A stretch of DNA of 64,000 nucleotides from Eutreptiella sp. 'Long Island Sound 2002' (lineage: Eukaryota > Euglenozoa > Euglenophyceae > Eutreptiales > Eutreptiaceae). This document shows positions 5,321 to 37,140 of the stretch, piece by piece. Position 1 is the first letter of the stretch, and each line of letters starts with the position of its first letter. The notes below the pieces were generated by a model, which saw only the letters and a program-made list of their open reading frames with translations, had not been told where the DNA came from and searched no databases. The stretch spans positions 117,543,429 to 117,607,428 of the forward strand of contig OZ038382.1 in the NCBI GenBank assembly GCA_964036045.1, given 5' to 3'. A program made the position numbers and the translations under genes.

Positions 5321-7572
5321 CAGATGCTGGCCTGGGAACAAGATGCGTACTGTATCACATTCTCGCATTACAGTACACGTATATGTACGTTACGCGTATA
5401 CATACGCCGTACTGTGCCAAACATGATAACCCTAGTTACTTTGAGAAAGTGTACTTTAAACTTCAAAAGAGTGATAAAGATGATTAAGTTAGTCCCAACA
5501 TCAATAAAAGGCTTTTAGGGGGGGCTTGGCCTGGATCAAGTCACCCAAGAAAGACATGGCAGTGACGTTTTCTTACTCTCAGCATGGAGAAATTGCACTT
5601 TGAAGCATGTTAAAGCATCATGAGCTACTGTAAATAAAAAAGCGACCTTTCGTCCTCAAAAACAACGAGTGCCTTGAATCAATAATTGAGTAGTGCTCCC
5701 AACTCCAAGAAGATTTCTTGCAGCAAAACAAAATTTCGTACAAAGAAATTCAACAGATGACCAACGAACCAAAATGACTAGCATGCATGCACTCACTGTG
5801 GGATGGATCATGGATGACGGATCACAAGAGAGCAATGCCGGCCGTCAGCAGGTGGCAACTTTGCAGAACAAACAGAAGTAGTGAGAAAATATTGTGCCAG
5901 AGTTCTTCCACCTCATGGGCTGTTGAATCAATCACATGACGATATATACATATGTCAGAGCAACACAGAATACACGTGCCTGTTGCACGTTGTTACACAT
6001 AACATATCATATGATAACATAATATAACATAGTGGGTGGGTCTGGGCTGGGGTTGGTTGGTAGAGCTGGATCCTACGTCTAACCTTTTGTCATACAGTTC
6101 CACTAGACGTAGTAGGGCTTCTGGAACAACTCTTACGTCTTGTGGAACTGTATAACCTGTTCGAGAAATAGCAGTCGTACTGTTCCGCTAGGCGTATTTT
6201 GTCCACCACTTGCGGGGGGACGGGTTCTGAAAAAAAATCCCAAACCTTGTTGGATCAACGGCAAAGGTCTCAAAAATGCATTTGTCCGCCTCTAGACCCA
6301 GTATTGAGTTCGGCAGGGACTTTTGGCCCGCCAAGATCTCAGGTGTCTCGTTTAGAGCCTATACATTATTATCTATTTTTTGATGAATGCCTAGTATGCC
6401 TTGTTGTATGCACCCTTGGGGCTAGGGCACCTCTTTTTGAAAGGTCTTGTGATCAAAAAGCAGCAGCCTAACTAAGTAGCGAGATGTCAGGTGACGTGGT
6501 CCTGACCACAATGCAACAAGCCATACCACCACAACAACAATGGGACCGACGACAAGGGGTTGTTTATGCAAAATCCACACGGGTGTGGGCATCGCCCTGA
6601 AGGTGACTTGAACCGAGTGAATCTTCCATTTTTCTCAATTTTCAACCAACCTAATTTCCATCCAATAAAACCAGCAGAGATTTCCAAGCTCACAACTCAC
6701 TCAAGTCTCTCAGAGCACGGCAATGACACAAACAATTCCAACTGAATACCCAATGACGAAATGACCCAGGTTTCCAATACGGTCCAACAATGATCCAACC
6801 AAAAGTTCACCAATGGTCCACAAAAAGCCACAAATGAGCCACGGTCAACAATGCTTCACAAATGAGCCAATATGGGTCCAAGATGGGTCCACTAGTCCAC
6901 ACACAACAGGCACGGGCAAAGCTCCACCCTAGAGACAAAGAAAATATTCCACAAGCGCGAGTAAGACTCAACCTACTCCTCCGGTCGGACCACATGCAAT
7001 GCAAGAATGGAGAGTTCATAATCACGGGCATCATCCTATGGACTTAAAGTCTTGCATGCATAAGTGTCAACCAAAAATTACACTACTTCCAGCCGTCGAC
7101 ATGAATGGTCTCACCGGTGGTGGACGAGTTGGAAGAAATGAACGACACCGCCGTTGGGCCAGCCCCAAAGAGCAAATGAGTCACACTCGAGTCTCTGGAC
7201 GTCTTGACTACACCAACGTGAGGGAAGGAAATGCACAAGCACATAAATGGGCACATGGGGCATGTAAACGCACCAACAAAGGCACCAAACCATGACGCGG
7301 TTAGCTCTTAGGATCAACATCTAATCTAAACCAAATTACCAAATGAGCAATACACCAATGACAATGGAGATCCACCGCTTGAGCAAAGGAGCACACAATA
7401 GGCCAATGGCCTCCCGGGCTACTCATGGGACCTAACCCACACCCAAAGAGACAACGTGCATGGAGAAAAGATCCCACCCAAAGAGAGCACGTGCATGGAG
7501 AGTTGGTCTCATCCCGGAGAGCCGGAGAGAGTACATGCATCGCCTAACCATGCCCGAGAAGAGATATTCCCC
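5321..7572. other. Intergenic, no supported gene; old dispersed repeats
   Basis: Only short unrelated ORFs. It contains an inverted repeat at 6092-6153, short repeated phrases such as CACAAATGAGCCA near 6825-6870, and a GTGCATGGAGA motif spaced by ~35 bp near 7455-7500. A 24-bp segment at 6567-6590 recurs with few changes at 17394-17416, on the other side of LINE-1, so an older repeat family flanks the LINE insertion. Confidence 0.6.
6092..6153. repeat. Perfect 12-bp inverted repeat
   Basis: ATACAGTTCCAC at 6092-6103 is the exact reverse complement of GTGGAACTGTAT at 6142-6153, with a 38-base spacer. An overlapping shorter pair (CTACGTCTA near 6073, TAGACGTAG near 6104) could form a competing hairpin. 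It may be a MITE remnant or simply a hairpin; no terminal duplication was recognised. Confidence 0.6.
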
Positions 7573-7589
7573 AACCAAATCCCTTGAGA
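7573..7589 (+). repeat. Left target-site duplication of LINE-1
   Basis: AACCAAATCCCTTGAGA here matches 16060-16076 exactly (17/17). The two copies bracket LINE-1; the right copy follows its short A-tail. This is the signature of target-primed reverse transcription and fixes both ends of the element. Confidence 0.93.
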
Positions 7590-7849
7590 TCACTTTCTGA
7601 GTGTCTACTTTTTTTCGATTGACCCTCAGCATTTTGTTGATGGATCCACCAGTAGTCCAGGCTATTCGGTGATTGGTGAAAATCCTGGGCTGTTCAAGTT
7701 CTGGAGCCTTTCCCGCAGTTTTCAAATCATCATCTCAATTCCCGAGTCCAAATCCACGCTCGCAACCTTCCAATTGACGCCAAGCCGCCTTTTCGTTCAT
7801 CCCGAGAACACCATGAATTTCACCCTATTTGGAAGCTCCAAAGCCGCCG

Positions 7850-9895
7850 ATGATGGCCTTTCAACGCTTTTTAACTATTCTCCGTCACACCTCTTTCAAA
7901 AACACCAAGCCTCAAATTTGCCGTTACAAACACGCTTTCCCTCACGCCAATTTCCGAACCGTTGAAGGCAAAATACTTGACACACGCCAACGCATTTTTG
8001 TTCCCGAAGTTTACTGCCGCCTACAAGACTACTCTGAGTTCTACCTGGATGTGGAAGGCACAGATATTCAATCCGCCTTTGTTGGGAGCAACTCCACGGA
8101 AATTCTAGACCGAGGCAGGGTCTCTTCCGTTGCGCACAATAACTACAACGAATTTGAAAAGCTTATGTTCAAACACAAGCGTTTCTACCTAAAGCCGTAT
8201 GAGTGGGACTACTCTCAAACCGAAGCCAAGAAGTCTCCACCTACCGCCACCCCGTGGGCTAAACAATTAAGAACCGTGCTAGATAAAGCCAAGGAAGAGA
8301 ACAAAGACCTCAAAGGATGGTTCGTTATTCCGGCGTGGGACGCTCAAGTGGTTGCCGCCACCTTTCGCATGCTAGGCTCAACTTCCGCCCTTTTTGCACT
8401 CCTTCCCTACATTTCTAGCGTGATATGCATGCACGGAGCACAACTCCGGGACGCCTACAAGGTCAAAAAGGACGGCAAAGACTCCTACGAGTTCCGCACG
8501 AGCGGCCATCAAACGATGCCGTTTGTTGCCTTACTCCTAAACACCTCTTCCTTTGACGGGTGCCGATATAAAGACATCAATTTTAAGTTTGAACCCTTCC
8601 GCTTCGCCGCCAAGCACGCCCATCCAACGGTGCGGGACCTCGGGTTGCACAAAACACTTCGTTTTGAGGTGAGCATAGAGTTCCTTGATCACATTGAGCC
8701 TTCGCCGCCGGAAGAGAGAGACAAATCTCAACCAAAACAACGCAAAATTGGAGACGCCCGTGCATTCATGAAGTTAATGAACGAAATGTTTGTCCCTGCG
8801 CTAGCAAACGTATCGGTGAACACCAAGAATGCTTACTACCCGTTTGGCCACATAGTTCCTTCCGAGAGCCCGCATTGGGCCTACTACCGGTTTGATTGGG
8901 AACTCCCATCCTGCTTTGCCGACGAGCCCATGTTTAAAGTCCGCGAGTGCGCCCAATTCCTCACTGGAGAACTCCTTGCAATGGATATGCACGCTTTGCC
9001 GACTACCGAAGTGTATCTAGCCGTGATCGCTAGGGACCGGAAGGAGAGAAACAAAGACCTACAAGCCCCGGAAATGCTCACCATGATGATCGCCAACCCA
9101 CCCGGAGGACGGGGTGCCTCACCGCCCTTAGGAGCGATGTTCCGGTCTAAAGATTCCCTGGTCGTGGCGATTGACACCACTCACGCGCCGTGCGACGTCA
9201 TGTAAACCGGGGTCCAAACGTTATCTATCCGCTTCTTCCACTCATGCGGCATTGTTCTCCTTCATCGCATAGATGGGCAATTGGTGCGGTTTTCGTCAAG
9301 ATCCGACGGCAACACAAGGTCCGCGCCTTCGGGCGCCCCCGAGCGACCCCACGCAACGCTGGCCCCGCCCTCATACGACTCGTCTAAGGCCCCAAAGACC
9401 GCCGTGCTCCTAGTGGCCCCAAGCTCGGCGCACGCTCTCGACTTGCGCGTCCAAGCGGGGTTCCTTGGCCTCTACGTGTTGTTCGACCCCACGCGGCCTC
9501 CCTACGAGCACCAAGAAGCCCATCTCGTGGTCTGAGAAAAGGAGGAATCCGCGCTGCTAGCGCATGATTTCAAATATGGAGACACTGCCTTTGCCCCACT
9601 GCACCGCAACCTCCTCGGCCTTGAGAAGATCCTCCCCGCTCAAGACCCGGATGTGGCCGAGCACAAGCAACCCATCGGGCAGCGCCTCCAAGCGGGCGCC
9701 GCCTTGGGGTCCACGGCCTTCGTGTCCCAACTTGTCTCCGCCCTCCGTGATAGGTCCGCGACGGGGCTGACTGAGCGCATCAGCGAGTGGAACGCGGCAC
9801 CGGACGACGCCGACGCCGCTACGCCAACGCCGGGACCAAGCCGCATCGAAGAGATGTCGGAGGCCGGCGTCCCGCTGCTTGCTCTGCTTGGGGGG
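7850..9895 (+). pseudogene. LINE-1 ORF1 protein, unknown family
   Basis: A long frame opens at ATG 7850 (an upstream TTG at 7829 is less likely) and runs 452 codons to TAA 9203. The same frame stays open and protein-like beyond it, through a TGA at 9533, to a G-run near 9890 where the frame must change to enter the AlkB-like domain. The first 450 residues are mixed alpha/beta in composition, with many aromatic and basic residues and no zinc knuckle, RRM or coiled coil that I recognise. Its position upstream of the endonuclease/RT makes an RNA-binding ORF1p role likely by analogy only. Whether it was one polyprotein with the AlkB part or a separate ORF is unclear. Confidence 0.6.
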
Positions 9896-10523
9896 GGAGG
9901 CGACCACCCTCCTACCCTCCGACCACGATGCCCCCACCCCCGCCTCGGAGATACCAATCGACCCCCGCCTCCCTACTCGTTTTTATTACGTCCGCGACGT
10001 ATTCTCCGAGAGCCAAGGGGAAACGGTAAAAAAGGTTCTCCACGACAACACGTTGGAGAAATACCACGGACGCTCAGTCCAACACTTCGGCCATGCGTAC
10101 CTCGGCCCGGGCAAAGTCACCGCCATGTCCCCCATCCCGGAAGAGTTTTCCTCTATCCTCCAAACCTACAATGACGCGCTGGAGCGGCTAGGCCTTTCGC
10201 ACCCTCCCCCCAACCAAATCACGGGCACAATGTATCTCTCCGGGGAAGGCATTGGCTCACACAGGGACGACCCCTTGCTAGGCGACCCGGTGTCCATTTT
10301 TGGCTCCCAGTCGGACACCACAATGTTCTTTAAAAACCCCTCCAACGGGGACTCGTTTCGCATCCGCCTCTTTGCCTGCTCTCTTCTTGTCCTCACGGGG
10401 GCCGCGCGCCATGAGTGGCACCACGGGATACCCTGACGGAGGGAAGACGAAGTGTTTGGGTTGACTGTCCCTCGTACCATCCCTCGGCTCGCTCTAATCC
10501 TCCGCCACGTCCCACAGGCAAGC
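9880..10523 (+). pseudogene. AlkB-like 2-oxoglutarate/Fe(II) dioxygenase domain inside LINE-1
   Basis: In frame 3, residues after FYYVRDVFSESQGE give the AlkB fold order. TGTMYLSGEGIGSHRDDP supplies the iron-binding HxD (His codon 10260, Asp codon 10266). SQSDTTMFF follows, then LLVLTGAARHEWHHGIP, the classic AlkB strand with the distal iron-binding His (10419 or 10422). Past an in-frame TGA at 10434 the frame continues with RLALILRHV, which fits the C-terminal Arg that binds 2-oxoglutarate, to TAA 10524. AlkB enzymes oxidatively remove methyl groups from N-methylated bases in DNA or RNA. All metal ligands are present; the TGA is the only break in the domain. It lies between ORF1 and the endonuclease, well inside the TSD-defined LINE. 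Confidence 0.8.
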
Positions 10524-10847
10524 TAACCCACGAAAGCCAGAGGGCCGGGTACCCGCCTCCTGCACTCTCCAGCCCCCTCTACCTGAAAACACAAGCGTCA
10601 ACATTCGGTGAAACACCGGCTCAGTCACGGGTTCCCCCATCACCGGCAAGGGACTAGACGAAGAGCTCCCCTCGGCCGGGGTACCGGCCGACCGAATTCA
10701 GCATTCTCGTTGCCTTAGCCAGCCCAGCCAGCCCGACCCCCCAGCGCCCCCCCCCGCCCCCCCCTATCCCGCCCCTCTGGAGGTCCCGTACACGCCTACG
10801 GAAGGGGTACCAACGGCCTCACCGCCCCCCCATACCCCTCCCTTCAG

Positions 10848-12190
10848 AACTGCATTTCCTGTCTCACAACTTGCAGAAGAAACCTATTGTGAGCAGCCAA
10901 ATTCTCCGACACCTCAAGAACGACTTCGACATCCTCTTTCTCCAAGGAATCAACCACGCCCCTATCCTCCCCCACGTATACGCCTACGTTTCGGGCACTA
11001 AAGCCACCATTGTTTCGAACATCAGCCAAGACAAACACGCCAGAGGCGAGCACGGGTACGTTTTGGTTTGCTCACCCCGGCTCTCCCGTTTCGTTACCCC
11101 CCTCCCCCGACTCGATACGGAAGGGCTACTGGCAGCAGCCGTTCTCACCCTCCCAGGGGCCCCGCCCACCTTGTTGGTCTCGGTATACGCCCCAAGCGCG
11201 GACGTCCACCGCTCAAAGATTGAAAGCATCCTCCGCCCACTCATGCATCAGTATCCCAACCACGTCCTAGGTGGGGACACCAACTGCATAATGTGCCCTG
11301 AGCTGGACGGAGCGAACCTCCAAACGGACAACGACTGGCCATGGCTCCGCAGGCAGGTCACGAGCCACCCGCCACGCCTCATCGATACCTTCCGGCACTT
11401 TCACCTGACCGAGCGGTCTTTCTCCCAATACCCCACCCCGTACAGGGCAAGCAGCAGCCGCCTCGACCATATTTTGCTCTCCCCGGCGGCGTCAAATTTT
11501 TTTGCCGCCACCTCTGCAACCATCCAAACCGACGACAAAACGTCAGACCACCAGCCAGTCACGTACATCTCTCAACTCCCCCCCCACCCCTTCTCCGAGA
11601 CTCCCACCACTAAGAGGAAAGTTTTCCGCAAACTGACGGAGCGGGAGCGCTCCAAGCACCACGAAGCCCTCGCCCCCCTGGCGCGGTGGTGCGAGTCTAC
11701 CCTCCCCCGTTTCGAGTCTTTATCCTCAGCAGACATAGAGTTCTTCACAGATGTTGTGCTGGAAGAAGTAGCGACCAGCCACCACAATATCACCACACCG
11801 TCACACCCCACCTCCTCGGCTCTGGTTAAGAAAATCAAAGCGGCCCTGCACTCCCTGCCCCCCCCCAACCATCCCGGCCATCCTGCTTCCATGGACACGC
11901 TCAACAAACTCGTCAAGGAGTGGGAGGCCAAAGTGAACAAGACCGCAACCACGAAAATTCATCGGTGCCTTGTGCGGCAAACTAGGATCAGACACACCAT
12001 CAACGAGGCACTCAACCCCGTGGAACGCAGTGAAATAGCGCTGAAGCGCCCGGGCACCACACAGCTCGTCTCCACCCCAAAAGACGTGGGCTCTATTTTC
12101 TCTTCCACACTCCTCACCCTGGGGGGCAGCCTGGAATACGCACCGCCGAGCACAGGATCACCTGCTCACACACTCCCCTACCTGCCCTGA
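10848..12190 (+). pseudogene. LINE-1 APE-type endonuclease domain
   Basis: The reading begins near LSHNLQKKPIVSSQILRHL and shows the ordered APE/exonuclease III motifs: DFDILFLQ, VSVYAPS, GGDTNCIM (D-x-N), SSRLDHILLS, and TSDHQPV (the terminal SDH). These enzymes nick the target for reverse transcription. The metal-binding Glu expected after DILFLQ is Gly here (codon at 10946), so this copy is probably catalytically dead. A linker of ~200 residues leads toward RT. The frame ends at a TGA at 12188, after a G-run near 12121 where the RT frame takes over. Confidence 0.85.
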
Positions 12191-13075
12191 ACCCACAAAA
12201 CACAGCCCTCTCCCTGACATTACCTGGGAATCGTTCTGCAACACGCTCAAGAGGCCAAAGCCCAGCAAGGCGGGGGGGCGGGATTTCACAAACAACTACA
12301 CTTTGCACGTCTCTCCCCCCCCTATCCAACAATTCATTTGGAGGATATGCAACCACTACCTCCACCGGCCGCTGCCCGAGAAATGGCTCGAAGCCAACAG
12401 TATCTTGCTTTTTAAGAAAGGGGACGTGATGAACCCTGTAAATTACAGGCCTATAGCCTTACTGAACAGCATTTACAAAAAAATTGCAACACACGCCAAC
12501 CGGGAACTACTGGCAGCGGCCATCGAACACTCCATCATACACCCCACCCAGTTCGGCGGGCTTCCCAACCGCAGGTGCCAAGACCACATTTTCAACCTCC
12601 TATCCACGTTTCGGGAATGAGTTGGTGGCTACAGCCTCTACATTGAACTCAATAAGGCTTTCAACTCCGTCCCCCACACCACCCTCTTCACAGTGCTGTC
12701 CCGCCTGAACTTTCCCACGCCCCTTGTAAGCCTCATTCAATCCTTGTACCATGCCCCCCGCGACTTCCCGATGGTGTCAGGGCACACCCACTCCTCCCAC
12801 TTGCAAACCAGAGGTGTTCGGCAGGGATGCCCCTTGTCACCCATCCTTTTCTGCCTTTACCTGAATGTGCTCCTCTTCGCCTTGCCGTCTCACGTCACTG
12901 CACCCCCCTGCCCACACGAATCGGGCCACGCCTTTGTTGACGACCTCCTCTATCGATCAGAGGATGGGGACCGCATACAGCAAATTTTGAATTTCTTCGA
13001 CACGGTTTCCAGGGAATGGGGTCTAGACCTTAACCTCCGCAAAACTGAGATCCATGCTATGGGAACAGCCCCCCT
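12120..13075 (+). pseudogene. LINE-1 reverse transcriptase, fingers and palm
   Basis: Frame 3 gives LPEKWLEANSILLFKKGD, NPVNYRPIALLNSIYKKIA, FGGLPNRRCQDHIFNLL, TRGVRQGCPLSPILFCLYL and the catalytic box AFVDDLLY (FVDD codons 12933-12944), a clear non-LTR RT. A TGA at 12618 lies between the fingers and the palm. In the palm A motif the usual D-x-x-K-A-F-D is E-L-N-K-A-F-N, so one catalytic Asp and the following conserved Asp are replaced. The copy is inactive. The frame must change near 13070-13140 to enter the thumb. Confidence 0.88.
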
Positions 13076-13079
13076 CCAG

Positions 13080-14020
13080 AACCCTCACCTCCCCCTGGGG
13101 CATCCCCCTATCAACAACCAACCAGAAGACGGGGCAACCACACAACTGCTACAAGTACCTAGGGGTGTACATCTTCACCGCCAACCACGAGGCACAAACA
13201 CTGGCATTGGCCAAGTTAGAAATACGCTCATTTTCCACAACCCTCCAACCCCTCCGGCTCACCCTTTCGGAATACGTTCTCTTAATGAACGTCCAACTCA
13301 TCCCTATTCTTTCCTACCGCCTCATGGCACACCCCCTGGCCCTGAGCGAGTTCGGAGTCCTCCAGGCCATGATCTGGCAAAATATTGCGCATGACCCCTC
13401 CCCGGACAAAGCCAACAGGATTTCCCGCCTCGTCTCTCCTAAGGCCCGCTACACCCCCCGCCACCAGGGAGGCTTGGGACTCCGCCATTTCACTTTTTCC
13501 ATTTGCATGGCCCTGGTGAACACCGCAATCAGGTACCTCAACGGGGACGGCCCGGCCTCAACAAACGAAGCGTTTTCCGGAGCAATGCTCTCCACCACAC
13601 GCAACCCAATCCAGGACACCGTCATGGACGCGTGCCACAGCATAGGCCTCCGATACCACAGCACCGGCCTCTGGGCCTCCTGCCCCCCCTCCCTCTGCCT
13701 CCCGAAGGAAAAAGTCCAGGTCCGGTTCCTAGCCACCAAGCCGGCACCGCAATACAGCAAGTTCGGCAACAGGCTAAAACGAACACCCCAGGACCTAGGG
13801 TTCCACCTAGGAACAGTCACGGGGGTGAACACAGGATCGGCCACACTCCCGTTTTCGGACGGCACCACCCACATCATCAAAGACCCCGGCCTGCACCGCA
13901 ACGAAAAAAAGTACACCTTTCAAAGCCCAGCCATTTCTGTCCGCCCCCAACTGGCAGGGCGCCACGAACTGCTTACCCCCCCCGTTCTCCACCCCCAAGA
14001 GTACATCCTCAACCCCCCCC
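13080..14020 (+). pseudogene. LINE-1 RT thumb and post-RT region
   Basis: Frame 1 carries CYKYLGVYIFTANHE, the conserved non-LTR thumb start (Y-K-Y-L-G), then LSEYVLLMNVQLIPILSYRLMAHP and an RHQGGLGLRHF motif typical of LINE post-RT segments. It continues as a linker to a poly-C run at about 14013-14030, after which RNase H is in another frame. No stop codons occur within the segment, so decay here is by indels rather than point mutation. Confidence 0.8.
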
Positions 14021-14039
14021 CCCCCCCCCGGGCCACACG

Positions 14040-14625
14040 GCGGAGTCCTACTTGATTCGTCACTGCATGGCGAGCTGTACCGGCTCCCAGATGAACCTCA
14101 CTCCCTTGACCCCGATGACCTTGAAGAATGGGGTTGCGAAGCAGCCCTTGCCCTCCTCCACACATCGTCCCCCGGCACGACATGGGTCTACTTGGATGGC
14201 TCAGCGGGCGCCTTGGGCTACGGATCTGCGGCCACCCTGTTTTTTCCGAATGGCTCCAGATGGGTGCTGTGCCAACCGTCCCCATACCAGTCCTCAGAGG
14301 GATCGGAGTTCTCGGCGGCCATTATGTTCCTACGGTGGGCCCTTGCATCTCACCCGCACCTCACCTTTGCCGTGCTAGGGGACAACATCCACGTTATCAC
14401 TGTTTTCTCTCCGAGCACCCCCCAAGGACTCCCATCACGCTCCCCAGCCGGCACATGGGAATCCTCTCTTCAGTCCATCCAGGCCTCCCTACGCCCAGGG
14501 ATGATCCAGGGTTGGGGGTGGATCAAGGGGCACGCCGGGTCCGTGGGGAAGGAAATCTCAGATGCTTACTCAAAGTGGGCCGCCCACGTGATGATCTGGG
14601 ACCACTCCCTCCTCCCCCCCCCCCC
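14040..14625 (+). pseudogene. LINE-1 RNase H domain
   Basis: Frame 2 gives TTWVYLDGSAGALGYG (first Asp), SEGSEFSAAIMFLRWAL (Glu), FAVLGDNIHVI (second Asp), then GWGWIKGHAGS and EISDAYSKWAA (His and last Asp). All acidic residues of the D-E-D-D site are present. RNase H removes the RNA strand after first-strand synthesis and is found in only some LINE clades. The segment is bracketed by poly-C runs (about 14013-14030 and 14617-14630), at both of which the reading frame changes. The equivalent domain in LINE-2 starts near 59930. Confidence 0.85.
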
Positions 14626-14639
14626 CGATAGGATGCATA

Positions 14640-15579
14640 TCCAGAGGCCCCCTCCCCGTCATGGAAAAACTGACTACCACCTCAATCAAGCACCTCCTCC
14701 CTCGCCACAAACACGAAAACATCCACGCACCGTCCAGCTTCCATTTTTACAACCACACTTCATGGTTCAAAGGCCTCCCTTTCAAATGGTCCTCCGGAAA
14801 CTTCAACATGGCACCGTTTGCTTTCCACGACGACTTGCGCCCTCGCCACTGCCACGCTTGCCCCGACCCGCACCCAATGGATGTTATCTCTTTCGTCTCA
14901 CACTGCCCAACATGCGAACACCTGGTGCAAACCTACATTCAATGCTGGCGCCCCCCCTTCACCACGGTGGTGTCCCAATGGTGGTCCAGGACCACACACG
15001 TCGGGGAGAGGCGCAATTTGTCCGGGGGCTGGTCCCCATGTCCCTGTACACGAAACTCACAACCCCCCCCTCCGGCCGAAGAAAACCGGCACACTGTCAT
15101 GACTTAAAACTCGCCCTGATGGCTCGTGTTCCTCTGCTCCTCAATGCCCTATACCGCACGCTGGAATGGCTAAACGACCACCCCCCCCCAGCCCCACTCA
15201 CCCCCCCTGCTGGCCCAAACCCATGGAGACGCCCCTGGTCGCCTTAGAGCACGTCACACACCGCCCAACAGCGCCCCCCCCCCCCCCCGCCTACCACCCT
15301 CCCCCCCCCCTCCCAGACAAAGTTGCACACAAGCCTCCAAAGCGCCCCCGTTCCCCATCCCCTGCGGCACACACCAAAGCTCAAAAACACGCCCGCCAGC
15401 CCCGTGGGCCTGTCCGGCCTATATCGCTGAAACGCAGTACCGGAAGCCAACCTCAGCCAGAGCCACCGCCCCCCGAACGGCCACTCACAATCTGGGACAT
15501 GTTCAACCTCCCCCCCCCCCTCGACCAGCACCCCCCCTCGCCGCCTCCGCCCCCGTTTCTGCCCCTTCTCCCCGCATAA
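14640..15579 (+). pseudogene. LINE-1 C-terminal zinc motif and Pro-rich tail
   Basis: After RNase H, frame 3 shows SWFKGLPFKWSSGNF and a Cys/His cluster, C-x2-C-x14-C-x4-H (codons 14850-14921; HCHACPDPH, then HCPTCEH). Then the frame changes to 2 (FVRGLVPMSLYTKL) and later to 1, where a Pro-rich tail holds DKVAHKPPKRP and LTIWDMFNLPPP. The same elements in the same order occur in LINE-2 (CPACTHPH, LLPIPLYNHL, SKVTHKAA, SLWDFFQLRPPP), so the tail is a genuine conserved part of the protein. Nucleic-acid binding is inferred from the zinc-like motif. Confidence 0.75.
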
Positions 15580-16059
15580 CAAGGTACTTCGCACCAACCC
15601 CCCCCTCCCCCGCGAGCACAAACTCACAATCGTCGTCACCTTCGTCCAACATGTCATCTCTTTGAAAAAGCCACACTTACACGCTTCTCCCACGCCGGCC
15701 CTCGACAGCCCTTACCACGGCGCAACCAATCAGTACTACCACACTGGCACTCACCAGTCACTTCTGCAAATGAGTCCCTCCCCCAAGCCACCCCCCGTGC
15801 CGAAGCCGTCATGTTCCAATCCTCAAGCCGCAACGGTACCGCCTCCGGAAATCAGGCAGAGACCCATGGCTCTGCGGTTGTTCATACCGGGGCTGCCAAG
15901 TCTCATTGAGATATGGCAGAAGAGGACAGCAACGTGCAGCGGTACTCAGCCCGCCATTGAACTTGGTTTCACGCTCCCGCCCCTCCCCGAAAAAGATTGG
16001 CGTGCAAGAGCCCTTCTCCCCGGCCTGGCCAGCCACAAAAGGCGCCGTTCAGTGCAAAA
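15580..16059 (+). other. LINE-1 3' untranslated region and A-tail
   Basis: About 480 bases after the last recognisable coding segment. It has no supported gene and ends in a short A-run directly before the right 17-bp duplication. Confidence 0.7.
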
Positions 16060-16076
16060 AACCAAATCCCTTGAGA
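16060..16076 (+). repeat. Right target-site duplication of LINE-1
   Basis: Exact match to 7573-7589. Because the element ends in A residues, the true start of the duplication could be one or two bases off. Confidence 0.93.
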
Positions 16077-18793
16077 GAGATTGTCCTATCCACCATGAGA
16101 GAGGGCATGCCTGGGGAGAGAGCTTCGCCTAGCTTTGACCCAAGACAAGAGAGCATGCATGCACTTGGAGAGAGAGTGGCGAAAGCGCGACCAATGCCTA
16201 TCCGTGAGTCTAACCATAAGACGGCAAAACCACGGCATGTCTTAATTGGATAACTCCCAGGCCACGGGCACTTGAAAAAAAAGAGAAGAGCCCAAATGTC
16301 TCAAAGGATCAAAGACAACCGTCAGATGGCATTAAATGCTCAATTTACCTCTTCAGGAGTATGACAAATTGGGAGACAGGGAGGGTGAGGGAAAGCACAA
16401 AATCCATCTTGGGGTGAGGACACACCATATGTTCACCTTGACCATGGAATCATGGGTACCACCAAGTTTGACTCACACCATGAATGGACCATGCATAAAT
16501 GACAAATGCAATGTCAACTCTTAGAATGAATGCATGAGACCTCAAAAACAAATATGGTGTGCCACCCCAATGGAATCCCATTGCAAGGCAACAACCAATG
16601 TATCCCACGACCAGCGGTGCGCCTACCTCAGCCACTTCCACTTCAACTCCTCTTGCACTGGGGCTCCTCCAGCTTCGAGGGACTCCTGATCCCCCATACA
16701 TGTAGGCGTGGCACTGCCGAAGCAGATGCGCCCATTAACGTCTACCATTCTCCTCTCAAGTGCAGTGATGCACCCAAGGATCACAGTCGCTGTGGGCGGA
16801 GGCACCACACCAGGGTTTAGGCAGATCGCAATTCCGGGCCTTCTCTCTTCCACTGGAGTCGCCCTAGCTTCCGATCGGTATCCATTTTGGTAACAGAATA
16901 GAGCTAACACTATTAGCACCAAACTGGAAGGGTATTCAATTGGCTGGCCTGCATTACAGCGCGACCAACGACGGCGTGCGCGCACACACAAGCAGGATCC
17001 AATTGACGGATCGGAAACCCAAATAATGTTAGAACGAATGCTGGCCAATCGCAGAGATGAAAAAAAAACAATGCAACATCATAAATGCAAAAACAGAACT
17101 GAAATCTGCAGTGGGAATTAATTCTGGGATCGAAATCTGGGATTTGAATGAAATGCTGAGATCGCATAATAATTTACACCTGAAGAGGCACACAAGAAGC
17201 AACATGAGTGTGCAAAGGAGAAATGGGCAACAAACATGCATTATGGAGACGGCTATGCCCTAGGTTTTACACCCCCCTCCCTGACTCAGACATCCCCGAT
17301 GCTCTGACCCAGCCAAAATCAGAAAACGAGGGTCAGAGCCATGGAAACGAGTACAAGCAAGCATCATAGGGCGGGTGGGTGGGTGCAAAATTCACACAGG
17401 TGTGGGCATTGCATGAGCACCCCCCTCCCTAGCCCTGAACACCCTTCATAACTCAAATGCTGATGTTTAGGCGATAAACTACCTATGCAAAGCCCCCACA
17501 CGTGCCATTGACACCCCCCTCCCTACCTGCAAATTCCCGGCGACAAGCCAAGCCGCAGCAAAACAATGCCACCCTATGGCGCGAAGGGGAATCAACAAGC
17601 GGAATGAGAGCCATACAATGCTGAAATGCACTTTGAGGTCAGCAAAGACAATAAATGCAGAAGATATGGAAACATTTTTTCTTTTTCGAAAAATTTTTTT
17701 TCCGAACCTTTTTTTTTCCGCAAAATATATCATCTCGGACCCAGGTGGAAACAGGAAGGAAACGGATGCCATGGTTGCATCTGGAATGAGTTTTCGAAGC
17801 GGGTAGGTACTCACGAAATCCTCCAACACAACGATATGTCAAAAATATGGCAAAAACACGGTTTTGACCCTAGGTAACCCTACCCTAAAAACTTTTTTTA
17901 GGCGGGTCTACCGGGGGACGCTGGTGCAAATGGAATGCAAACAGACCCCACGGTGGCGTTGGGCATGCCAAAAAATGGTTGAGGACCCGTTCGGAACCTC
18001 CTGAGGAACCACCAGTTCGGAGATATGAAAAATCAAATTTTTACTAAAAATAGCAACATTTGTTACTGAAAATAGCGAAGCGGAAAAATTGGATATCCAA
18101 ACGGGCCAACCCTGGAGGGAAACGGACCTCATCAATGCGATCACCGTGCAAAAACATGGTCGCGGACCCTCAGGAAACGCGACACGGGGCCGGCGGCGAG
18201 GAGCTCTAAAAATAGAAAATTTGTTACTAAAAATAGCACGAAAATTTTAGGAATATAATGTGGTGTTCTAAAAATAGAAAGACCCATTTTGGAAAAAATA
18301 TATGCCCCCCAAGCACGATTGGCCGCTCCCATGGCGTCCGGCAACCTCAAATTAGGGCCGGGGGCTCAAACAACATAAGCATTCAGCGCGTCAAGCTCAA
18401 ATCTATCCCAAGTGCCCAAAGTGGTGGGCACACCATGGAATAGGCAGTGAAACACCCACAACAATACAAAACAATGGCATGGTTGCATCCGGCAACACAA
18501 AATTAGGGGCGAAATGCAAAGCAGGAGAGAGGAGGACATTACAATGCAGACGGGAGGAGTAGGTCAAACAACTGGAAAAGACATGTGGGTAAGAGAGACA
18601 ACCACCATCAATCAATGGCAACGGATAAGGGCAAAGGGATCATATGGCAAAGGGTTCAAAGGATCAATGCAGAATTGCCTGAATAAAGTGTGAAGAGGGG
18701 TCATTCCACTCCAACGGGGAAAGTTCAATGAAAGAGCTTGCTGGAGGGCCAACCTGCCAATAGTTGGTAAAAATAATGAAAATGAACAATAAT
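16077..18793. other. Non-coding; dispersed repeats, possible 3' LTR region of element D
   Basis: No supported gene. The first ~130 bases resume the repeat interrupted by LINE-1 (GAGAGAGGGCATGC, CATGCATGCACTTGGAGAGA). The phrase ACCCCCCTCCCT recurs near 17269, 17420 and 17512. From about 17880 to 18300 the motif CTAAAAATAG or close variants recurs several times. The right part lies directly downstream (minus sense) of element D's chromodomain and should hold its 3' UTR and LTR, but no LTR pair could be matched. Confidence 0.5.
17301..17339. repeat. 10-bp perfect hairpin
   Basis: GCTCTGACCC at 17301-17310 pairs exactly with GGGTCAGAGC at 17330-17339 around a 19-base A-rich loop. Function unknown. 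Confidence 0.6.
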
Positions 18794-22894: not shown

Positions 22895-25280
22895 GAAAAA
22901 GAAGGACAACAGAGTCGCGACGGCGACGAAGTTGAGCGTTGCTTGCCCCAAAACACCTAGCAAAGTGCGTGTCCTAGGCGCTAGGGACTTGTGCGCGCTC
23001 CAACAACAAAGAAGATGGTTAGAGGCGAGAATAGCACAAAAGAGCCGCCAAGACGGGAAAGCGGAACGTTGCGTGCCCCAAATCACATAGCAAAGTGCAT
23101 GCAGTAGGAATAGGGGACTTGTGCGCGCCCCAACACCAATAAGAAAAACAAAACAACGAGACAACATAGGGTAGGCGCCACGTGAACATGCCGGCCGCCG
23201 AAACAAGTATGTTATATGTTATACGATGCGCCACGCTGCCACACGACGAAAGGGAGCCGAGGTGCGCAACGCACGAGGGAAAGGACACAACGGCCACACC
23301 GCCACCAACGAAAAGGCAAGCCCGCTAACATCCCCCGCATGCATAGGACGAGGACGCCATGAGACAAGCAAGGTCAAGGTGTGTGAAAGCATCAAGGGGA
23401 AGAGACCCCCCCAACGCAAAGCGGCACACAAAAAAACAGGGAAACCATGAAACACCATGACTTAAACACACACAAGAGGTATGCCCATGCACGCACACGC
23501 CATGAGAGCCGCCGCAAGCACGCCAAGGTATAAACAACCTGCCGCCGAACAAACCGACGCCACGAGCACCGCGCCGCCGCTCAACCGCCCACGTATGCAT
23601 TCTATAATCTCTTTACTCTAGGCCGCCCGCACGGAAAGAAGCATGGTATGAGGGACACCCGCACGGAACCGAAAGGAGGGAACCACACGCCGCCGGAGAG
23701 CACACCACCGCGACCACAAACACACATACCAGAGACCCAAGGGCACACGAAGAGCAAGAGGTATACCCGCACACGCAAGGGCCCGACAAACGCCGCAAGC
23801 GCCAAAAGGTATGGGTAAAAAAAACAAAAAAGTACACGCAAAGGGCCGCTGCTAATGGAGACGCAAGCGAACCGCGGCGCCAACGCGCCCACCGACCAAG
23901 CAACGAGGCAACCACCCCCTTCTCCTCCTATCTCACTCTATAGGGTGCCGGCGCCGAGGAAAATGTGGACACCGCCAATAAACACACAAAGAGCAAAAGG
24001 CCGCCAACACCGCGGAACGGAACATGAGTGGTATGAGGGAATACCTAATGGGCAGCCCAAGCGGAAAGAAGTGATCGTATGAAACCAGGAAACCACGAAA
24101 CCGGAAGAAGGGAGCCACACGCTACCGGGGAGCACACACCACCGCCACCAAAGACACAAATCACAAGCCCGAGGGCACAAAAAGGGCAAGTGGTACGCCC
24201 ACACGCGCAAGCACGCACAAGCAAGGTATGGAGAGACCCGAGCCCGCCGCCGCAAACAACACAAGGAAGGAAGGGCCAAGGACAGACTAAAAGAACGAAG
24301 CGCACAACGCCGCAACGCCAGCGCACCCGCCGACCGAACAAATGTCATGAAAACCACCCTCCTCCCTCGCTCTGTAGGCCAACAACAAGAGAGGAAGCCG
24401 CCAACGCCTAAAAGTGGACACCGCCAACGACCAAATGAAGAACAAGAGGCCGCCACCGCCACGGAGCAAAAGTGGTATGAGGGAATACCCAGGGGCAGCC
24501 CAAACGAAAAGCAATGAGGATGGTATGAATGGTATGGATGCCCACATGCGCAAGCATACACAAGCAAGGTATGGAGATATGGCGAAGGAGCACGAACCAG
24601 CCGCCGCAAACGTGACGAGGAAGGGAGGACCAAGGATGGACAACGAGAGCGAAGTACACAACGCCACCCTCCTCCCTCTCTCTATAGGCCATCAATGCGG
24701 GTCAAGGAGTGGGAACACAACAAACAGGTCTGTTCTCGCAAGCGCAACGCAACCGCCACCGCCGCGGACAAGCACACCATGGTATGGCACGAAGGGTGAG
24801 GAGAGTGCGCGCACACGTAGACACAAGTGCGAAGACAGGTATGTTATACGCCGCGCAATGGAGAACGCAGCCGCAACGAACATGGTGCCAACGTGGGTAC
24901 AGTATGTTACATGATGACCGCGCCCAGCCGCCGAAGGCCCACATACCCCCATCCTTCCTTTGTCTCACAGGGCCCAACGGGAGAGAACGACGAGCCGGCA
25001 AGGAAAAAGACCGAGACACGCACCAGAGCGGAGGCAGGGAAAAAGTGCAAGCCAAGGAGAAGGGTAGAGGAAAGAGTAAAAAGCATCGAAGCCACGAAAG
25101 AAACAGGGGATAGCCAGCAGCCGAGCAAGGGACACGCGCAGGGAAGGGGGCACGGCTGGCACACAGCGAGCACAACACCGCACCGAAGCATCGGAGAGGG
25201 GTGCACCAGAGGGACAAGAGAAAAGCGGTGCCGCGCACCACGACACGCACGGCACAGACACAACACACACCGCACACACC
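22895..25280. repeat. Old diverged tandem repeats, no gene
   Basis: At 22937-23013 and 23067-23143 two ~77-bp blocks match strongly (TAGCAAAGTGC, GGGGACTTGTGCGCGC), giving a ~130-bp period. From ~23250 to 24930 a longer unit recurs with a landmark of CTCTNTAGG after a pyrimidine-rich run near 23620, 23936, 24373 and 24680, so units of roughly 300-440 bp. They also share CACACGCAAGCACGCACAAG-like and CAAGGTATGGAGA phrases. Open frames here appear on both strands and are compositional. Confidence 0.65.
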
Positions 25281-28200
25281 AACACCCGCGCCCACAGCAC
25301 GAGGCCAGCGAGCCCCAGCAGCCCGCCCAGAGGGCGGGCAGCCGGGGGAGGGAGAGCGCCTGACCCCAGACGCCCCTCACAATGGCGGACGGCAACGCCC
25401 CCAGGGACGCCCTACCGCCAGCCCCACGGCGCGCAACGCCGGCCCGCAAGGGCGCGCGCCGTGGGGCCGGTACAGAGTCCCCACGCCCGCACCGACCGCA
25501 CCCGGGACACACGGGTCGCGGAACCCTGGCTGCCCACTCCAGAGGACGGGCGGCTGGGGGAGGGACAGCGCCTGACACCAGACGCCCCTCACAACGGTGG
25601 CAGGCCAGCCCCCCTGGGGACGGCCCCCCACCACCCCCGCGGCACGCAGCCCCCACAGGGCATGCAAGCCAAGGGGACAGTGTTGGGCCCCCACACCCAC
25701 ACACCCGCGCCCACAGCACGTTGGTGGCGGACACCAACAGCCCGCCCAGTAGGCGGGCAGTCGGGAGAGGGACAGCGCCTGACCTCAGACGCCCCTCACA
25801 ATGGTGGAAGGCACCCCCCCCGGGGACGCCCTTCCGCCACCCCCACAGCGAGCAACGCCAGCCCGCAAGGGCGCACGCTGTGGGGCCGGTGCTGGGTCCC
25901 CACGCCCGCACCGACCGCACCCGGGACACACGGGGCGCGGAACCCCGGCTGCCCGCTCCAGAGGACGGGCGGCCGGGGAAGGGACAGCGCCTGACAGCAG
26001 ATGCCCCTCACAACGGTGGCAGGCCACCCCCCCCGGGGACGGCCCCCCACCATCCCCGCGGCACGCAGCCCCCACAGGGCATGCAGGCCAAGGGGACAGT
26101 GTCGGGCCCCCACACCCACACACCCGCGCCCACAGCACGTGGGTGGCGGACCCAAACAGCCCGCCCAGTGGGCGGACAGTCGGGGGAGGGACAGTGCCTG
26201 ACCTCAGACGCCCCTCACAATGGTGGAAGGCACACCCCCCGGGGACGCCCGTCCGCCACCCCCACAGCGAGCAACACCGGCCCGCAAGGGCGCACGCTGT
26301 GGGGCCGCCGCTGGGTCCCCACGCCCGCACCGACCGCACCGGGACACACGGGGCGCGGAACCCCGGCCACCCGCTCCAGAGGACGGGCGGCCGGGGGAGG
26401 GACAGCGCCTGACACCAGACGCCCCTCACAACGGTGGCAGCCCACCCCCCCCGGGGACGGCCCCCTACAACCACCCCCGTGGCATGCGGCCCCCGCAGGG
26501 CATGCAGGCCACGGGGACAGTGTTGGGCCCCCACACCCACACACCCGCGCACACAGCACGTGGGTGGCGGACCCCAACAGCCCGCCCAGTGGGCGGGCAG
26601 TCGGGGGAGGGACAGCGCCTGACCTCAGACACCCCTCACAACGGTGGCAGGCCACCCCCCCTGGGGACGGCCCCCCACCACCACCCCCGTGGCACGCAGC
26701 CCCCGCAGGGCATGCAGGCCAAGGGGACAGTGTTGGGCCCCCACAGCAACACTGCCGCGCCCACGGCACGTGGGTGGCGGACCCCAACAGCCCGCCCAGT
26801 GGGCGGGCAGTCGGGGGAGGGACAGCGCTTGACGTCAGACGCCCCTCACAATGGTGGTAGGCACCCGCCCCGGGGACGCCCTTCCGCCGGCCCCACAGCA
26901 AGCAACGCCGGCCCGCAAGGGGCACGCTGTGGGGCCGGTGCTGGGTCCCCACGCCCGCAGCGACCGGACCCGGGACACACGGGTCGCGGAACTCTGGCTA
27001 CCCGCTCCAGAGGACGGGCGGCCGGGGGAGGGACAGCGCCTGACACCAGACGCCCCTCACAATGGTGGAAGGCATGCACCCCCCCCGGGGACGGCCCCCC
27101 ACCACCCCCGCGGCACGCAGCCCCCACAGGGCATGCAGGCCAGGGGGACAGTGTTGGGCCCCCACACCCACACACTCGCGCCCACAGCACGTGGGTGGCG
27201 GACCCCAACAGCCCCCCAGTGGGCGGGCAGTCGATGGAGGGACAGCGCTTGACCTCAGACGCCCCTCACAATGGTGGAAGACACCCCCCCCGGGGGCGCC
27301 CGTCCGCCACCTCCACAGCGAGCAACGCCGGCCTGCAAGGGCGCACGCTGTGGGGCCGATGCTGGGTCCCCACGCCCGCACCGACGGCAACCGGGACACA
27401 CGGGTCACGGAACCCCGGGTGCCCGCCCCAGAGGACGGGCGGCCGGGGGAGGGACAGCGCCTGACACCAGACGCCCCTCACAATGGTGGAATAAAGGCAC
27501 CCCCCCCCCGGTGACGCCCTTCTGCCACCCCCACAGCGAGCAACGCCAGCCCGCAAGGGCGCACGCTGTGGGGCCGGTGCTGGGTCTCCACGCCCGCACC
27601 GACCGCACCCGGGACACACGGGTCACGGAACCCTGGCTGCCCGCTCCAGAGGACGGGCGGCCGGGGGAGGGACAGCGCCTGACACCAGACGCCCCTCACA
27701 ACGGTGGCAGGCCACCCCCCCCGGGGACGGTCCCCTACCAGCCCCGGGGCACGCAGCCCCCACAGGGCAAACAGGCCAAGGGGACAGTGTTGGGCCCCCA
27801 CACCCACACACCCGCGCCCATAGCACGTGGGTGGCGGACCCACAAAGCCCGCCCAGTGGGCAGGCAGTCGGCGGAGGAACAGCGCCGGACCTCAGACGCC
27901 CCTCGCAATGGTGGAAGGCAGCCCCCCCGGGGACGCTCTTCCGCCACCCCCACAGCGAGCAACGCCGACCCTCAAAGGCGCACGCTGTGGGGCCGGTGCT
28001 GCATCCCTATGCCCGCACCGACCGCACCCGGGACACACGGGGCGCGGAACCCCGGCTGCCCGCTCCGGAGGACGGGCGGCCGGGGGAGGGACAGCGCCTG
28101 ACAGCAGACGCCCCTCACAACGGTGGCAGGCCACCCCCCCCGGGGACAGCCCCCCACCACCCCCCCGGCACGCAGCCCCCACAGGGCATGCAGGCCAAGG

Positions 28201-31200
28201 GGACAGTGTTGGGCCCCCACACCCACACCACACCCGCGCCCACAGCACGTGAATGGCAGAACCCAACAGCCCGCCCAGTGGGCGGGCAGTCGGGGGAGGG
28301 ACAGCGCCTGACCTCAGACGCCCCTCACAATGGTTGAAGGCACACCCCCCGGGGACGCCCGTCCGCCAGCCCCACAGCGAGCAAAACTGGCCCGCAAGGG
28401 CGCACGCTGTGGGGCCGGTGCTGGGTCCCCACGCCCGCACCGACCGCACCCGGGACACACGGGGCGCGAAACCCTGGCCGCCCGCTCCAGAGGACGGGCG
28501 ACCGGGGGAGGGACAGCGCCTGACACCCGACGCCCCTCACAACCGTGGCAGGCCACCCCCCCTGGGGACGGCCCCCTACCACCACCCCGTGGCACGCAGC
28601 CCCCGCAGGGCATGCAGGCCAAGGGGACAGTGTTGGGCCCCCACACCAACACTGCCGCGCCCACAGCACGTGGGTGGCGGACCCCAACAGCCCGCCCAGT
28701 GGGTGGGCAGTCGGGGGAGGGACAGCCCTTGACCTCAGACGCCCCTCACAATGGTGAAAGGCACCCGCCCCGGGGACGCCCTTCCGCCACCCCCACAGCC
28801 AGCAACGCCGGCCCGCAAGGGCGCACGCTGTGGGGCCGGTGCTGGGTCCCCACGCCCGCACCGACCGGACCCGGGACACATGGGTCGCGGAACTCTGGCT
28901 ACCCGCTCCAGAGGACGGGCGGCCGGGGGAGGGACAGCGCCTGACACCAGACGCCCCTCACAATGGTGGAAGGCACCCCCCCCGGGGACGCCCTTCCGCC
29001 ACCCCCACAGCGAGCAACGCCGGCCCGCAAGGGCGCGCGCTGTGGGGCTATTGCTGGGTCCCCACGCCCGCACCGACCGCACCCGGGAGACACGGGTCGC
29101 GGAACCCTGGCTGCCCGCTCTAGAGAAAGGCGACCGGGGGAGGGACAGCGCCTGACACCAGACGCCCCTCACAATGGTGGAAGGCATGCACCCCCCCCTG
29201 GGGACGGCCCCCCACCATCCCCCCGGCACGCAGCCCCCACAGGGCATGCAGGCCAGGGAGACAGTGTTGGGCCCCCACACCCACCCACCCGTGCCCACAG
29301 CACGTGGGTGGCGGACCCCAACAGCCCCCCAGTGGGCGGGCAGTCGATGGAGCGACAGCGCTTGACCTCAGACGCCCCTCACACAATGGTGGAAGGCACA
29401 CCCCCCGGGGACGCCCTTCCGCCACCCCCACAGCGAGCAACGCGGGCCTGCAAGGGCGCACGCTGTGGGGCCGGTGCTGGGTCCCCACGCCCGCACCGAC
29501 GGCACCCGGGACACACGGGTCGCGGAACCCCGGCTACCCGCTCCAGGGGACGGGCGGCCGGGGGAGGGACAGCGCCTGATACCAGACGCCCCTCACAACG
29601 TTGGCAGGCCAGCCCCCCCGGGGACAGCCCCCCACCACCCCCGCGGCACGCAGCCCCCACAGGGCATGCAGGCCAGGGGGACAGTGTTGGGCCCTCACAC
29701 CCACACACCGGCGCCCACAGCATGTGGGTGACGGACCCCAACAGCCCGCCCAGTCGGCGGGCAGTCAGGGGAGGGACAGCGCCCTACCTCAGACGCCCCT
29801 CACAATGGTGGAAGGCACCCCCCCCGGGGACGCCCTTCCGCCACCCCCACAGCGAGCAACGCCGGCCCGCAAGGGCGCACGCTGTGGGGCCGGTGCTGGG
29901 TCCCCACGCCCGCACCGACCGCACCCAGGACACACGGGGCGCGCAACCCCGGCTGCCCGCTCCAGAGGACGGGCGGCCGGGGGAGGGACAGCGCCTGACA
30001 CCAGACGCCCCTCACAACGGTGGCAGGCCACCCCCCCCGGGGACGGCCCCCCACCACCCCCACGGCACGCAGCCCCCACAGGGCATGCAGGCCAAGGGGA
30101 CAGTGTTGGGCCCCCACACCCACACACCCGCGCCCCGAGCACGTGGGTGGCGGACCCCAACAGCCCGCCCAGTGGGTGGGCAGTTGGGGGAGGGGGAGCG
30201 CCTGACCTCAGACGCCCCTCACAACGGTGGAAGGCACCCCCCCTGGGGATGCCCTTCCGCCACCCCCACAGCGAGCAACGCCGGCCCGCAAGGGCGCACG
30301 CTGTGGGGCCGATGGTGGGTCCCCACGCCCGCACTGACCGCACCCGCGACACAAGGGTCGCGGAACCCCGGGTGCCCGCCCCAGAGGACGGGCGGCCGGG
30401 GGAGGGACAGCGCCTGACACCAGACGCTCCTCACAACGGTGGCAGGCCACCCCCCCGGGGCAGCCCCCGACCACTTCCGCGGCATGCAGCCCCCACAGGG
30501 CATGCAGGCCAAGGGGGCAGTGTTGGGCCCCCACACCCACACACCGGCGCCAACAGCACGTGGGTGGCGGACCCCAACAGCCCGCCCAGTGGGCGGGCAG
30601 TCGGGGGAGGGGGAGCGCCTGACCTCAGACGCCCCTAACAACTGTGGGAGGCACCCCCCCCGGGGACGCCCTTCCGCCACCCCCACAGCGAGCAACGCCA
30701 GCCCGCAAGGGCGCACGCTGTGGAGCCGGTGCTGGGTCCCCAAGCCCGCACCGAACGCAGGCGGGACACACGGGTCACGGAACCCCGGCTGCCCGCCCCA
30801 GAGGACGGGCGGCCGGGGGAGGGACAGCGCCTGACACCAGACGCCCCTCACAACGGTGGCAAGCCACCCCCCCCTGGGACGGCCCCCCACCATCCCCGCG
30901 GCACGCAGCCCCCACAGGGCATGCACTCCCAGGGGACAGTGTTGGGCCCCCACACCCACACACCTGCGCCCACAGCACGTGGGTGGCGGACCCCAACAGC
31001 CCGCCCAGTGGGCGGGCAGTCGGGGGAGGGGGAGCGCCTGACCTCAGACGCCCCTGACAGCGGTGGAAGGCACCCCCCCCGGGGACGCCCTTCCGCCACC
31101 CCCACAGCGAGCAACTCCGGCCCGCAAGGGCGCACACTGTGGAACCGGTGCTGGGCCCCCACGCCCACACCGACCGCACCCGAAACACACGGGTCGCGGT

Positions 31201-31340
31201 ACTCCGGCTGCCCGCCCCAGAGGATGGGCGGTTGGGGGAGGGACGGCGCCTGACACCAGACGCCCCTCACAACAGTGGCAGCCAGCCCCCCCCCCAGGGG
31301 ACGGCCCCCCGCCAGCCCCGCGGCACGCAGCCCCCACAGG
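25280..31340 (+). repeat. GC-rich satellite of two alternating ~210-bp monomers
   Basis: About 29 monomers in head-to-tail array, each marked by GACGCCCCTCACAA. Two types alternate. H1 continues GTGGCAGGCC and holds GGGGACGGCCCCCCACCA and GTGGGTGGCGGACCCC. H2 continues TGGTGGAAGGCACC and holds GGGACGCCCTTCCGCC and GCACGCTGTGGGGCCGG. The H1-H2 dimer is ~420 bp. Homotypic doublets break the alternation: H1-H1 near 26427/26634, H2-H2 near 27266/27477 and 28745/28957. A block near 26.5-27.5 kb shares private variants with one near 28.5-29.6 kb, pointing to a larger duplication. The dimer length is a multiple of three, which explains long frames on both strands; I do not regard them as genes. Confidence 0.95.
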
Positions 31341-37000: not shown

Positions 37001-37140
37001 TGGCCGAGACCGACGAGTGAGGTCGATCGAGGAAGTTGCTGAGGACATGTTGAGGACGTTGGAGGAACTCAAAGCCCAGCAACGTGGTGGACAAAGTCCT
37101 GGCGGATCGCAGCCGGAAGGGGCTGCGGGAAGTCAAGTCT
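34038..37140 (+). pseudogene. Gag of element A
   Basis: A 779-codon frame from 34038 covers a Cys-rich, charged N-terminus, a coiled coil (about residues 270-370, rich in E/L/R heptads) and a capsid-like core (LRGIKIPYYDGNPSNLDDFI, WEDFAEEVV, CLQWLEDEERV). At ~36290 a small indel relative to element C shifts the frame; the rest is in frame 1 (36244-37020) and holds a CCHC knuckle, CWVCYGKG to HDHRQC (C-x2-C-x8-H-x4-C). A one-base deletion at ~36908 relative to C destroys the Gly/Lys-rich tail. The first ATG overlaps the LTR end, so true initiation may be downstream. Gag would form the particle and bind RNA. Confidence 0.8.

Follow-up and report, generated by a model that had tools for sequence, protein, structure and literature searches.

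The window considered here, the whole stretch of DNA that was analysed, comprises 64,000 nucleotides from the euglenid alga Eutreptiella sp. 'Long Island Sound 2002' (contig OZ038382.1, forward strand, positions 117,543,429 to 117,607,428). It contains an 8.47 kb long interspersed nuclear element (LINE), lying between exact 17-bp repeats of the sequence AACCAAATCCCTTGAGA, whose first open reading frame (ORF1) ends in an AlkB-type Fe(II)/2-oxoglutarate (2OG) dioxygenase domain and whose 5′ end is the host spliced leader (SL). An earlier reading of the letters alone (the original prediction) had already proposed that a perfect 17-bp duplication bounds a LINE at this locus, and the duplication is indeed exact at both ends. 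The features of this copy, which belongs to family I of those described below, are as follows.

7573..7589, no strand: target-site duplication, 5′ copy, 17 bp, exact direct repeat
7591..7617, + strand: spliced-leader sequence, nt 2-28 with one mismatch, at the extreme 5′ end of the element (euglenoid SL in PMC3621762)
7618..7629, + strand: ATTGACCCTCAG, a C-rich tract plus CAG, acceptor-like; common to family III, with ATTGCCCCTTCAG in family II
7813..10526, + strand: ORF1, broken; N-terminal domain (ORF1N), linker and C-terminal AlkB, from reading-frame comparison with relatives
9957..10523, + strand: AlkB-type Fe(II)/2OG dioxygenase domain, from Pfam, PDB, alignment and fold searches
10850..15665, + strand: ORF2, broken; APE-type endonuclease (EN), reverse transcriptase (RT), RNase H, Cys/His motif (identified by eye) and proline-rich tail
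15666..16059, + strand: 3′ untranslated region, ending in GTGCAAAA
16060..16076, no strand: target-site duplication, 3′ copy, 17 bp, exact direct repeat

ORF1 of the window copy is interrupted by in-frame stops at 9203, 9533 and 10434 (TGA) and by frameshifts near 7960 and in a G-run at 9890-9897, and ORF2 has several further frame breaks. EN, RT and RNase H are found 3′ of AlkB on the same strand (E values of 7.8e-7, 2.7e-22 and 6.4e-4, the last below the Pfam cut-off), while no long direct repeats resembling long terminal repeats (LTRs) were found within 7000-16800 of the window. The window copy is a full-length yet dead LINE copy of an autonomous family.

The AlkB domain

The frame at 9771-10436 matches Pfam PF13532 with an E value of 6.6e-6 and 26.9 bits, which is slightly below the cut-off of 31.2, and it matches the PDB AlkB proteins Ofd2 (2.8e-11), ALKBH8 (6.8e-9) and ALKBH6 (1.3e-7). 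Among three less decayed copies, P0085 (31.8 bits) and P0086 (38 bits) exceed the Pfam cut-off and P0084 (31.0) falls just short of it. The AlkB profile search proposed as a check on the original prediction does return the expected profile. The predicted fold was likewise recovered, as the double-stranded beta-helix of AlkB proteins was encountered in the fold search, where ALKBH8, ALKBH6 and Schizosaccharomyces pombe Ofd2 form the top three.

The HxD motif (H 10260-10262, D 10266-10268) and the distal His (10422-10424) lie at the positions that had been claimed for them, and the candidate 2OG-binding Arg in RLALILR corresponds to an R-x5-R motif with Arg codons at 10485-10487 and 10503-10505, past the TGA at 10434. 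H136 and D138 are invariant across 15 aligned AlkB rows. The distal His is present in the window copy and in representatives of families I-IV and is lost in some decayed copies such as P0016, and the R-x5-R motif reads RLALILR, RVAVILR, RVSLVFR and RWSIVVR in families I-IV. All of these residues are retained in the family representatives, with losses in single decayed copies.

Three narrower affiliations were considered and rejected. Kinship with repair-type AlkB proteins was set aside as the nearest solved structures by sequence are Ofd2, ALKBH8 and ALKBH6 instead, and placement in the ALKBH5/FTO group of m6A demethylases because the closest sequence relation is not to ALKBH5 or FTO. The domain is not an ALKBH8 either, since the RRM and methyltransferase domains are absent and Pfam searches on P0085 and P0086 (E up to 1) give PF13532 alone.

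Copies, families and architecture

Searching proteins with the AlkB frame recovered 58 relatives with identities of 58-90%. They share a single source (ENA), each of them lies on one contig, and the PF13532 label is already attached to 13. The length filter of this search excludes long proteins, hence a second search was made with the read-through of the whole ORF1. It gave 20 matches, including P0085 (984 aa), which represents 163 sequences, and P0086 (824 aa), which represents 121. The PF13532 label is on five of the 20, and several others are shorter or out of frame within AlkB. The original prediction had located AlkB between ORF1 and the endonuclease; this needs correcting, as in the uninterrupted copies P0084-P0087 the domain forms the C-terminus of a single unbroken ORF1, which measures about 900 aa in P0085 when counted from MNFTLFG.

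The corresponding ORF2 search gave 25 matches, of which P0059-P0061 are 85-90% identical and P0059 (1589 aa) stands for 372 members. P0062 represents a sister ORF2 family of 30 members (46% identity across 97% of the query, with an RT 61% identical to that of family I), and the remaining 21 cover parts of the query with identities of no more than 34%. P0059 joins an APE endonuclease (Exo_endo_phos, 4.6e-8) and an RT (RVT_1, 7.4e-32) in one ORF, the best PDB match of this type of ORF2 is human L1 ORF2p (1.5e-19), and an RNase H-like domain scores above the Pfam cut-off in P0062 and below it in P0059.

PF13532 produced 1107 first-look candidates in the genome of the window (2.28 Gb, 2205 contigs), and scoring of the best 150 gave at least 151 matches. 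Twenty stretches of 9.9 kb were examined, chosen mainly for long open frames along with the likely host genes L034 and L035. EN lies 3′ of AlkB in 18 of the 20, a count that is not a rate given this choice; RT follows too in 17, and in 17 a single open frame spans ORF1N and AlkB. The case that would have spoken against the original prediction, a domain captured in this copy only and missing from the others, is thus not what these 18 stretches display.

Eleven of the AlkB stretches belong to family II and seven to family III, both distinct from family I of the window copy; L016, taken from the genome-wide PF13532 matches, represents a fourth type, family IV, in which AlkB has EN downstream in a different frame. 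Identity among families I, II and III amounts to 24-25% in ORF1N, 33-36% in AlkB, 39% in EN and 48-52% in RT, and a larger alignment including family IV gives 27-33% for AlkB. Clear target-site duplications of 14-18 bp flank L022, L023, L029 and L031, those of L030 and L033 are doubtful, and none was found in L021, L037, L038 and L039. The domain belongs to the element and is fused to ORF1 in at least three LINE families, with its catalytic residues kept.

Selection

In family II (10 of 11 loci) the mean pairwise ratio of non-synonymous to synonymous substitution rates (dN/dS) of AlkB comes to 0.16, and in family III (7 loci) to 0.21. The values for the same two families are 0.15 and 0.23 in ORF1N, 0.15 and 0.28 in EN, and 0.15 (7 loci) and 0.36 (3 loci) in RT. 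Codon bootstrapping places pN/pS of AlkB at 0.12-0.26 in family II and 0.12-0.41 in family III, while a shifted-frame control yields 1.19-2.20 on the same AlkB codons and 0.92-2.20 over all four regions. As the AlkB ratio is low, like those of EN and RT, the domain is maintained about as strictly as these two; purifying selection in families II and III is as strong on AlkB as on EN and RT.

The spliced leader at the 5′ end

The element in the window starts with CACTTTCTGAGTGTCTACTTTTTTTCG, which corresponds to nt 2-28 of the spliced leader ACACTTTCTGAGTGTCTATTTTTTTTCG described in Eutreptiella and identical in Euglena gracilis (PMC3621762). Exact 26-nt matches to the SL number 2580 genome-wide, with none for a reversed-pattern control. 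GTA follows directly in 1003 of these sites, 986 of which also begin with ACAC and contain the 28-mer of PMC3621762, and many of these SL-gene-like sites lie in a tandem array with a spacing of about 1.3 kb. The SL donor is described as GTATA (PMC11170887), and these SL-gene-like sites are taken to be the SL RNA genes of the host, which on this evidence is very probably a euglenid.

The LINE copies form a separate set. In family II the SL stands at the 5′ end of 10 of 11 loci, exactly so in five, and L036 is cut off within it; family III has it on both 5′ ends examined, and it was not seen in the family IV stretches L016 and L043. The full-length copies examined in families I, II and III begin with the host spliced leader. 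Exact starts of SL plus ATTG(A/C)CCCT occur 429 times in the genome (control 0), and by hand count at least 11 among 100 such starts listed lie 2.4-4.2 kb upstream of a same-strand AlkB match. On contig C1, an exact SL precedes four of 16 AlkB matches by 2.4-3.1 kb in the same orientation, against a mean of 0.016 and a maximum of 1 in 2000 rounds of random placement; the 16 are from 17 matches listed, one lying beyond the SL list.

The first base of the leader varies. With ATTGACCCT behind the SL there are 178 matches with all 28 nt (A before CACTTT) and 175 with nt 2-28 after T, and A or T in this place explains 25 of 25 matches listed on C1. The T is part of the target duplication in L022, L023, L029 and L031, though not in the window copy, and SL base 1 may for this reason be target-derived.

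Several further SL sites deserve mention. About 1100 of the 2580 are neither SL-gene-like (1003) nor LINE-like (429) and may derive from retro-copies of host mRNAs or from other elements. An SL-like site with three differences at position 8677 of L028, 3′ of the LINE ORFs and 8.7 kb from the beginning of the stretch, is possibly the start of another retro-copy. In L041 (G000:C5:113710200-113712700) one LINE 5′ end carries tandem, partly truncated SL copies, which suggests template switching by RT at the leader. The ORF1-AlkB frame of P0084 continues from an unrelated upstream frame, which we take to resemble a Helitron protein, with the junction at SL-encoded residues.

How the leader arises

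The leader could be a fixed leader/promoter module of the element DNA or be re-acquired by trans-splicing in every cycle, and the first of these is marginally the more probable. The tract directly 3′ of the SL, ATTGACCCTCAG or ATTGCCCCTTCAG, is C-rich and ends in CAG, and C-rich tracts have been described in E. gracilis outrons (PMC11170887). An SL joined past this CAG is the product that would be expected from trans-splicing. This junction is present in 15 exact matches (11 with family-III sequence, 4 with family-I sequence and 0 in family II), against the 429 that retain the intervening ATTG(A/C)CCCT, an arrangement common to families I, II and III. Furthermore, the first 115 nt of families I and III are 91% identical as opposed to 52% for RT, and family II has the first 37-38 nt in common with both, which makes the SL and its adjoining bases a conserved 5′ module. 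An AG before ATTG was not seen in the SL-bearing copies examined, the SL is no less diverse than the 73 nt that follow it, and trypanosomatid LINEs offer a precedent in their common 77-nt 5′ promoter Pr77 (PMC8190864).

Re-acquisition would nevertheless fit the 15 CAG-joined matches themselves. Two of the 11 with family-III sequence precede AlkB matches by 3.0-3.1 kb (C1:82373493 and C6:81624775), and L041 is another of the 11; L041, which also has the tandem SL, is the one CAG-joined match that was examined in sequence. Also in favour of renewal, eight Ts are kept, substitutions aside, in 10 of 10 family-II copies compared. The account tentatively favoured is that the leader is inherited as part of the element DNA and may now and then be spliced on anew.

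Possible roles of the AlkB domain

Judging from sequence, it is nearly certain that these LINEs encode a conserved AlkB enzyme. The fuller picture, of an autonomous LINE with a two-part ORF1 (N-terminal domain plus AlkB) whose AlkB acts on the RNA or ribonucleoprotein (RNP) of the element, is probable, if with clear reservations. ORF1p would bind or coat the element RNA, and its AlkB domain would use Fe(II), O2 and 2OG to oxidise, and most likely demethylate, methylated bases of that RNA or RNP; removal of the marks could then lift blocks to reverse transcription or erase host marks. ORF1 of other LINEs is an RNA-binding RNP protein, and hence the fusion to ORF1 favours an action in cis. That the substrate is specifically the element's own RNA or nascent cDNA has slightly less than an even chance.

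A number of observations weigh against this picture. Among 69 partial protein copies of family I the iron ligands (H in 40 of 46, D in 36 of 46, distal H in 29 of 33) are no better preserved than the average column (0.887), and the R-x5-R arginines stand at 25 and 26 of 28; the ligand counts fit mostly dead copies, yet they give AlkB conservation no support. The dN/dS estimates cover families II and III, family I being represented by proteins and the window DNA alone, and their loci were selected for long open frames and a strong AlkB match. The AlkB tree did not resolve a single origin, the ORF1 N-terminal domain matched no known fold in the Pfam and PDB searches, and the full-length ORF1 model was useless (pLDDT 26). 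Finally, the closest relatives differ in substrate, as ALKBH8 modifies the tRNA wobble base whereas Ofd2 is histone-responsive, with no activity on methylated DNA oligonucleotides reported in PMC3175000.

This kinship with ALKBH8 and Ofd2 makes tRNA-type hydroxylation or a protein target possible alternatives. In its broader form, AlkB would act on host tRNA wobble bases, other host RNAs or chromatin proteins, for example to tune translation or silencing for the element. This is rather unlikely: the neighbours by sequence and fold do include ALKBH8 (tRNA) and the histone-stimulated Ofd2 (PMC3175000), and a LINE protein expressed from many copies might gain access to host pools, but the fusion to ORF1 argues for action in cis. 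It is more doubtful still that the fold is kept solely as an RNA-binding part of ORF1 with catalysis no longer needed. AlkB folds do bind nucleic acid and ORF1 proteins are required to bind RNA; however, the residues that bind the metal and 2OG stay conserved among family representatives whose AlkB domains share no more than 33-36% identity. The idea that one or a few copies picked up a host ALKBH gene by chance, and that it does nothing for the element, is refuted in practice even though the host has its own ALKBH8-like genes (L009, L013 and L015), as the element AlkB is merely 21-30% identical to these and occurs in several families, with clusters of 163 and 121 members, the architecture of 18 in 20 stretches and a low dN/dS.

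The leader and the enzyme might also be connected. The SL 5′ end of Euglenozoa can carry base methylations that stop RT (cap-4 in trypanosomes), and that of euglenids might do so too. ORF1-tethered AlkB acting on the element RNA could conceivably strip such marks from the leader and let RT copy through to the end, a long shot which, if true, would explain both the full-length leader-bearing insertions and an enzyme conserved as strictly as RT.

Other repeats in the window

A further LINE of the same clade is represented at 59913-61082 by its 3′ part (RNase H and C-terminus, 35-38% identical to P0059/P0062). This part lies between 56931-59289 and 61255-63529, which are 93-95% identical to 31773-34126 and 36120-38388. 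A large tandem array at 25270-31354, with a unit of about 210 bp by self-match offset, contains long proline/arginine-rich frames on both strands, and 41027-44053 and 52438-55465 are 3.0-kb copies in the same orientation that are 97.4% identical.

Comparison with known systems

One AlkB-bearing retrotransposon was found in the open-licence PMC literature, an orchid Ty3/Gypsy element with an ALKBH5-like 2OG dioxygenase, for which a role against RNA methylation was proposed and in vitro demethylase activity reported (PMC9289625). That element has LTRs, a separate ORF and an ALKBH5-like enzyme and is described from one Phalaenopsis lineage, whereas here the enzyme is fused to ORF1 of a LINE, is nearest to Ofd2, ALKBH8 and ALKBH6 by sequence and occurs in several divergent families. 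These three relatives share the HxD...H arrangement but are cellular genes, and ALKBH8 in addition has a methyltransferase domain (PMC3175000) and, by its PDB title, an RRM, neither of which was found in the LINE ORF1. The AlkB domains of plant RNA-virus replicases are likewise parasite-encoded and present in the viral fold search, yet at 12-17% identity they rank behind giant-virus and phage AlkBs.

Added enzymatic domains are also described in insect TRAS/Jockey LINEs with viral helicases (PMC5563155, PMC6338049) and in non-LTR elements with an esterase (PMC3905857), although as described there these are not AlkB or other 2OG dioxygenases. Dinoflagellate and charophyte retrotransposons have similarly captured a nucleic-acid-modifying enzyme, a cytosine methyltransferase, which differs from AlkB in that it writes DNA methylation (PMC5890265). 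Trypanosomatid LINEs, also Euglenozoan, resemble the present ones in sharing a short conserved 5′ end, but Pr77 transcripts are described as unspliced (PMC8190864), while the present elements open with the host spliced leader.

No LINE with AlkB was found in the open-licence PMC literature (other print and Repbase lie outside this scope). As far as that literature shows, this is the first LINE lineage with AlkB as a stable, selected part of ORF1, in several families and hundreds of copies, and after the orchid Ty3/Gypsy element a second, putative case of retrotransposons with an oxidative nucleic-acid eraser. The idea of a contest between host and element over RNA or DNA methylation thereby becomes testable in a Euglena-like alga, and the leader with which the element starts bears on how LINEs are expressed and copied in full length where mRNAs are trans-spliced.
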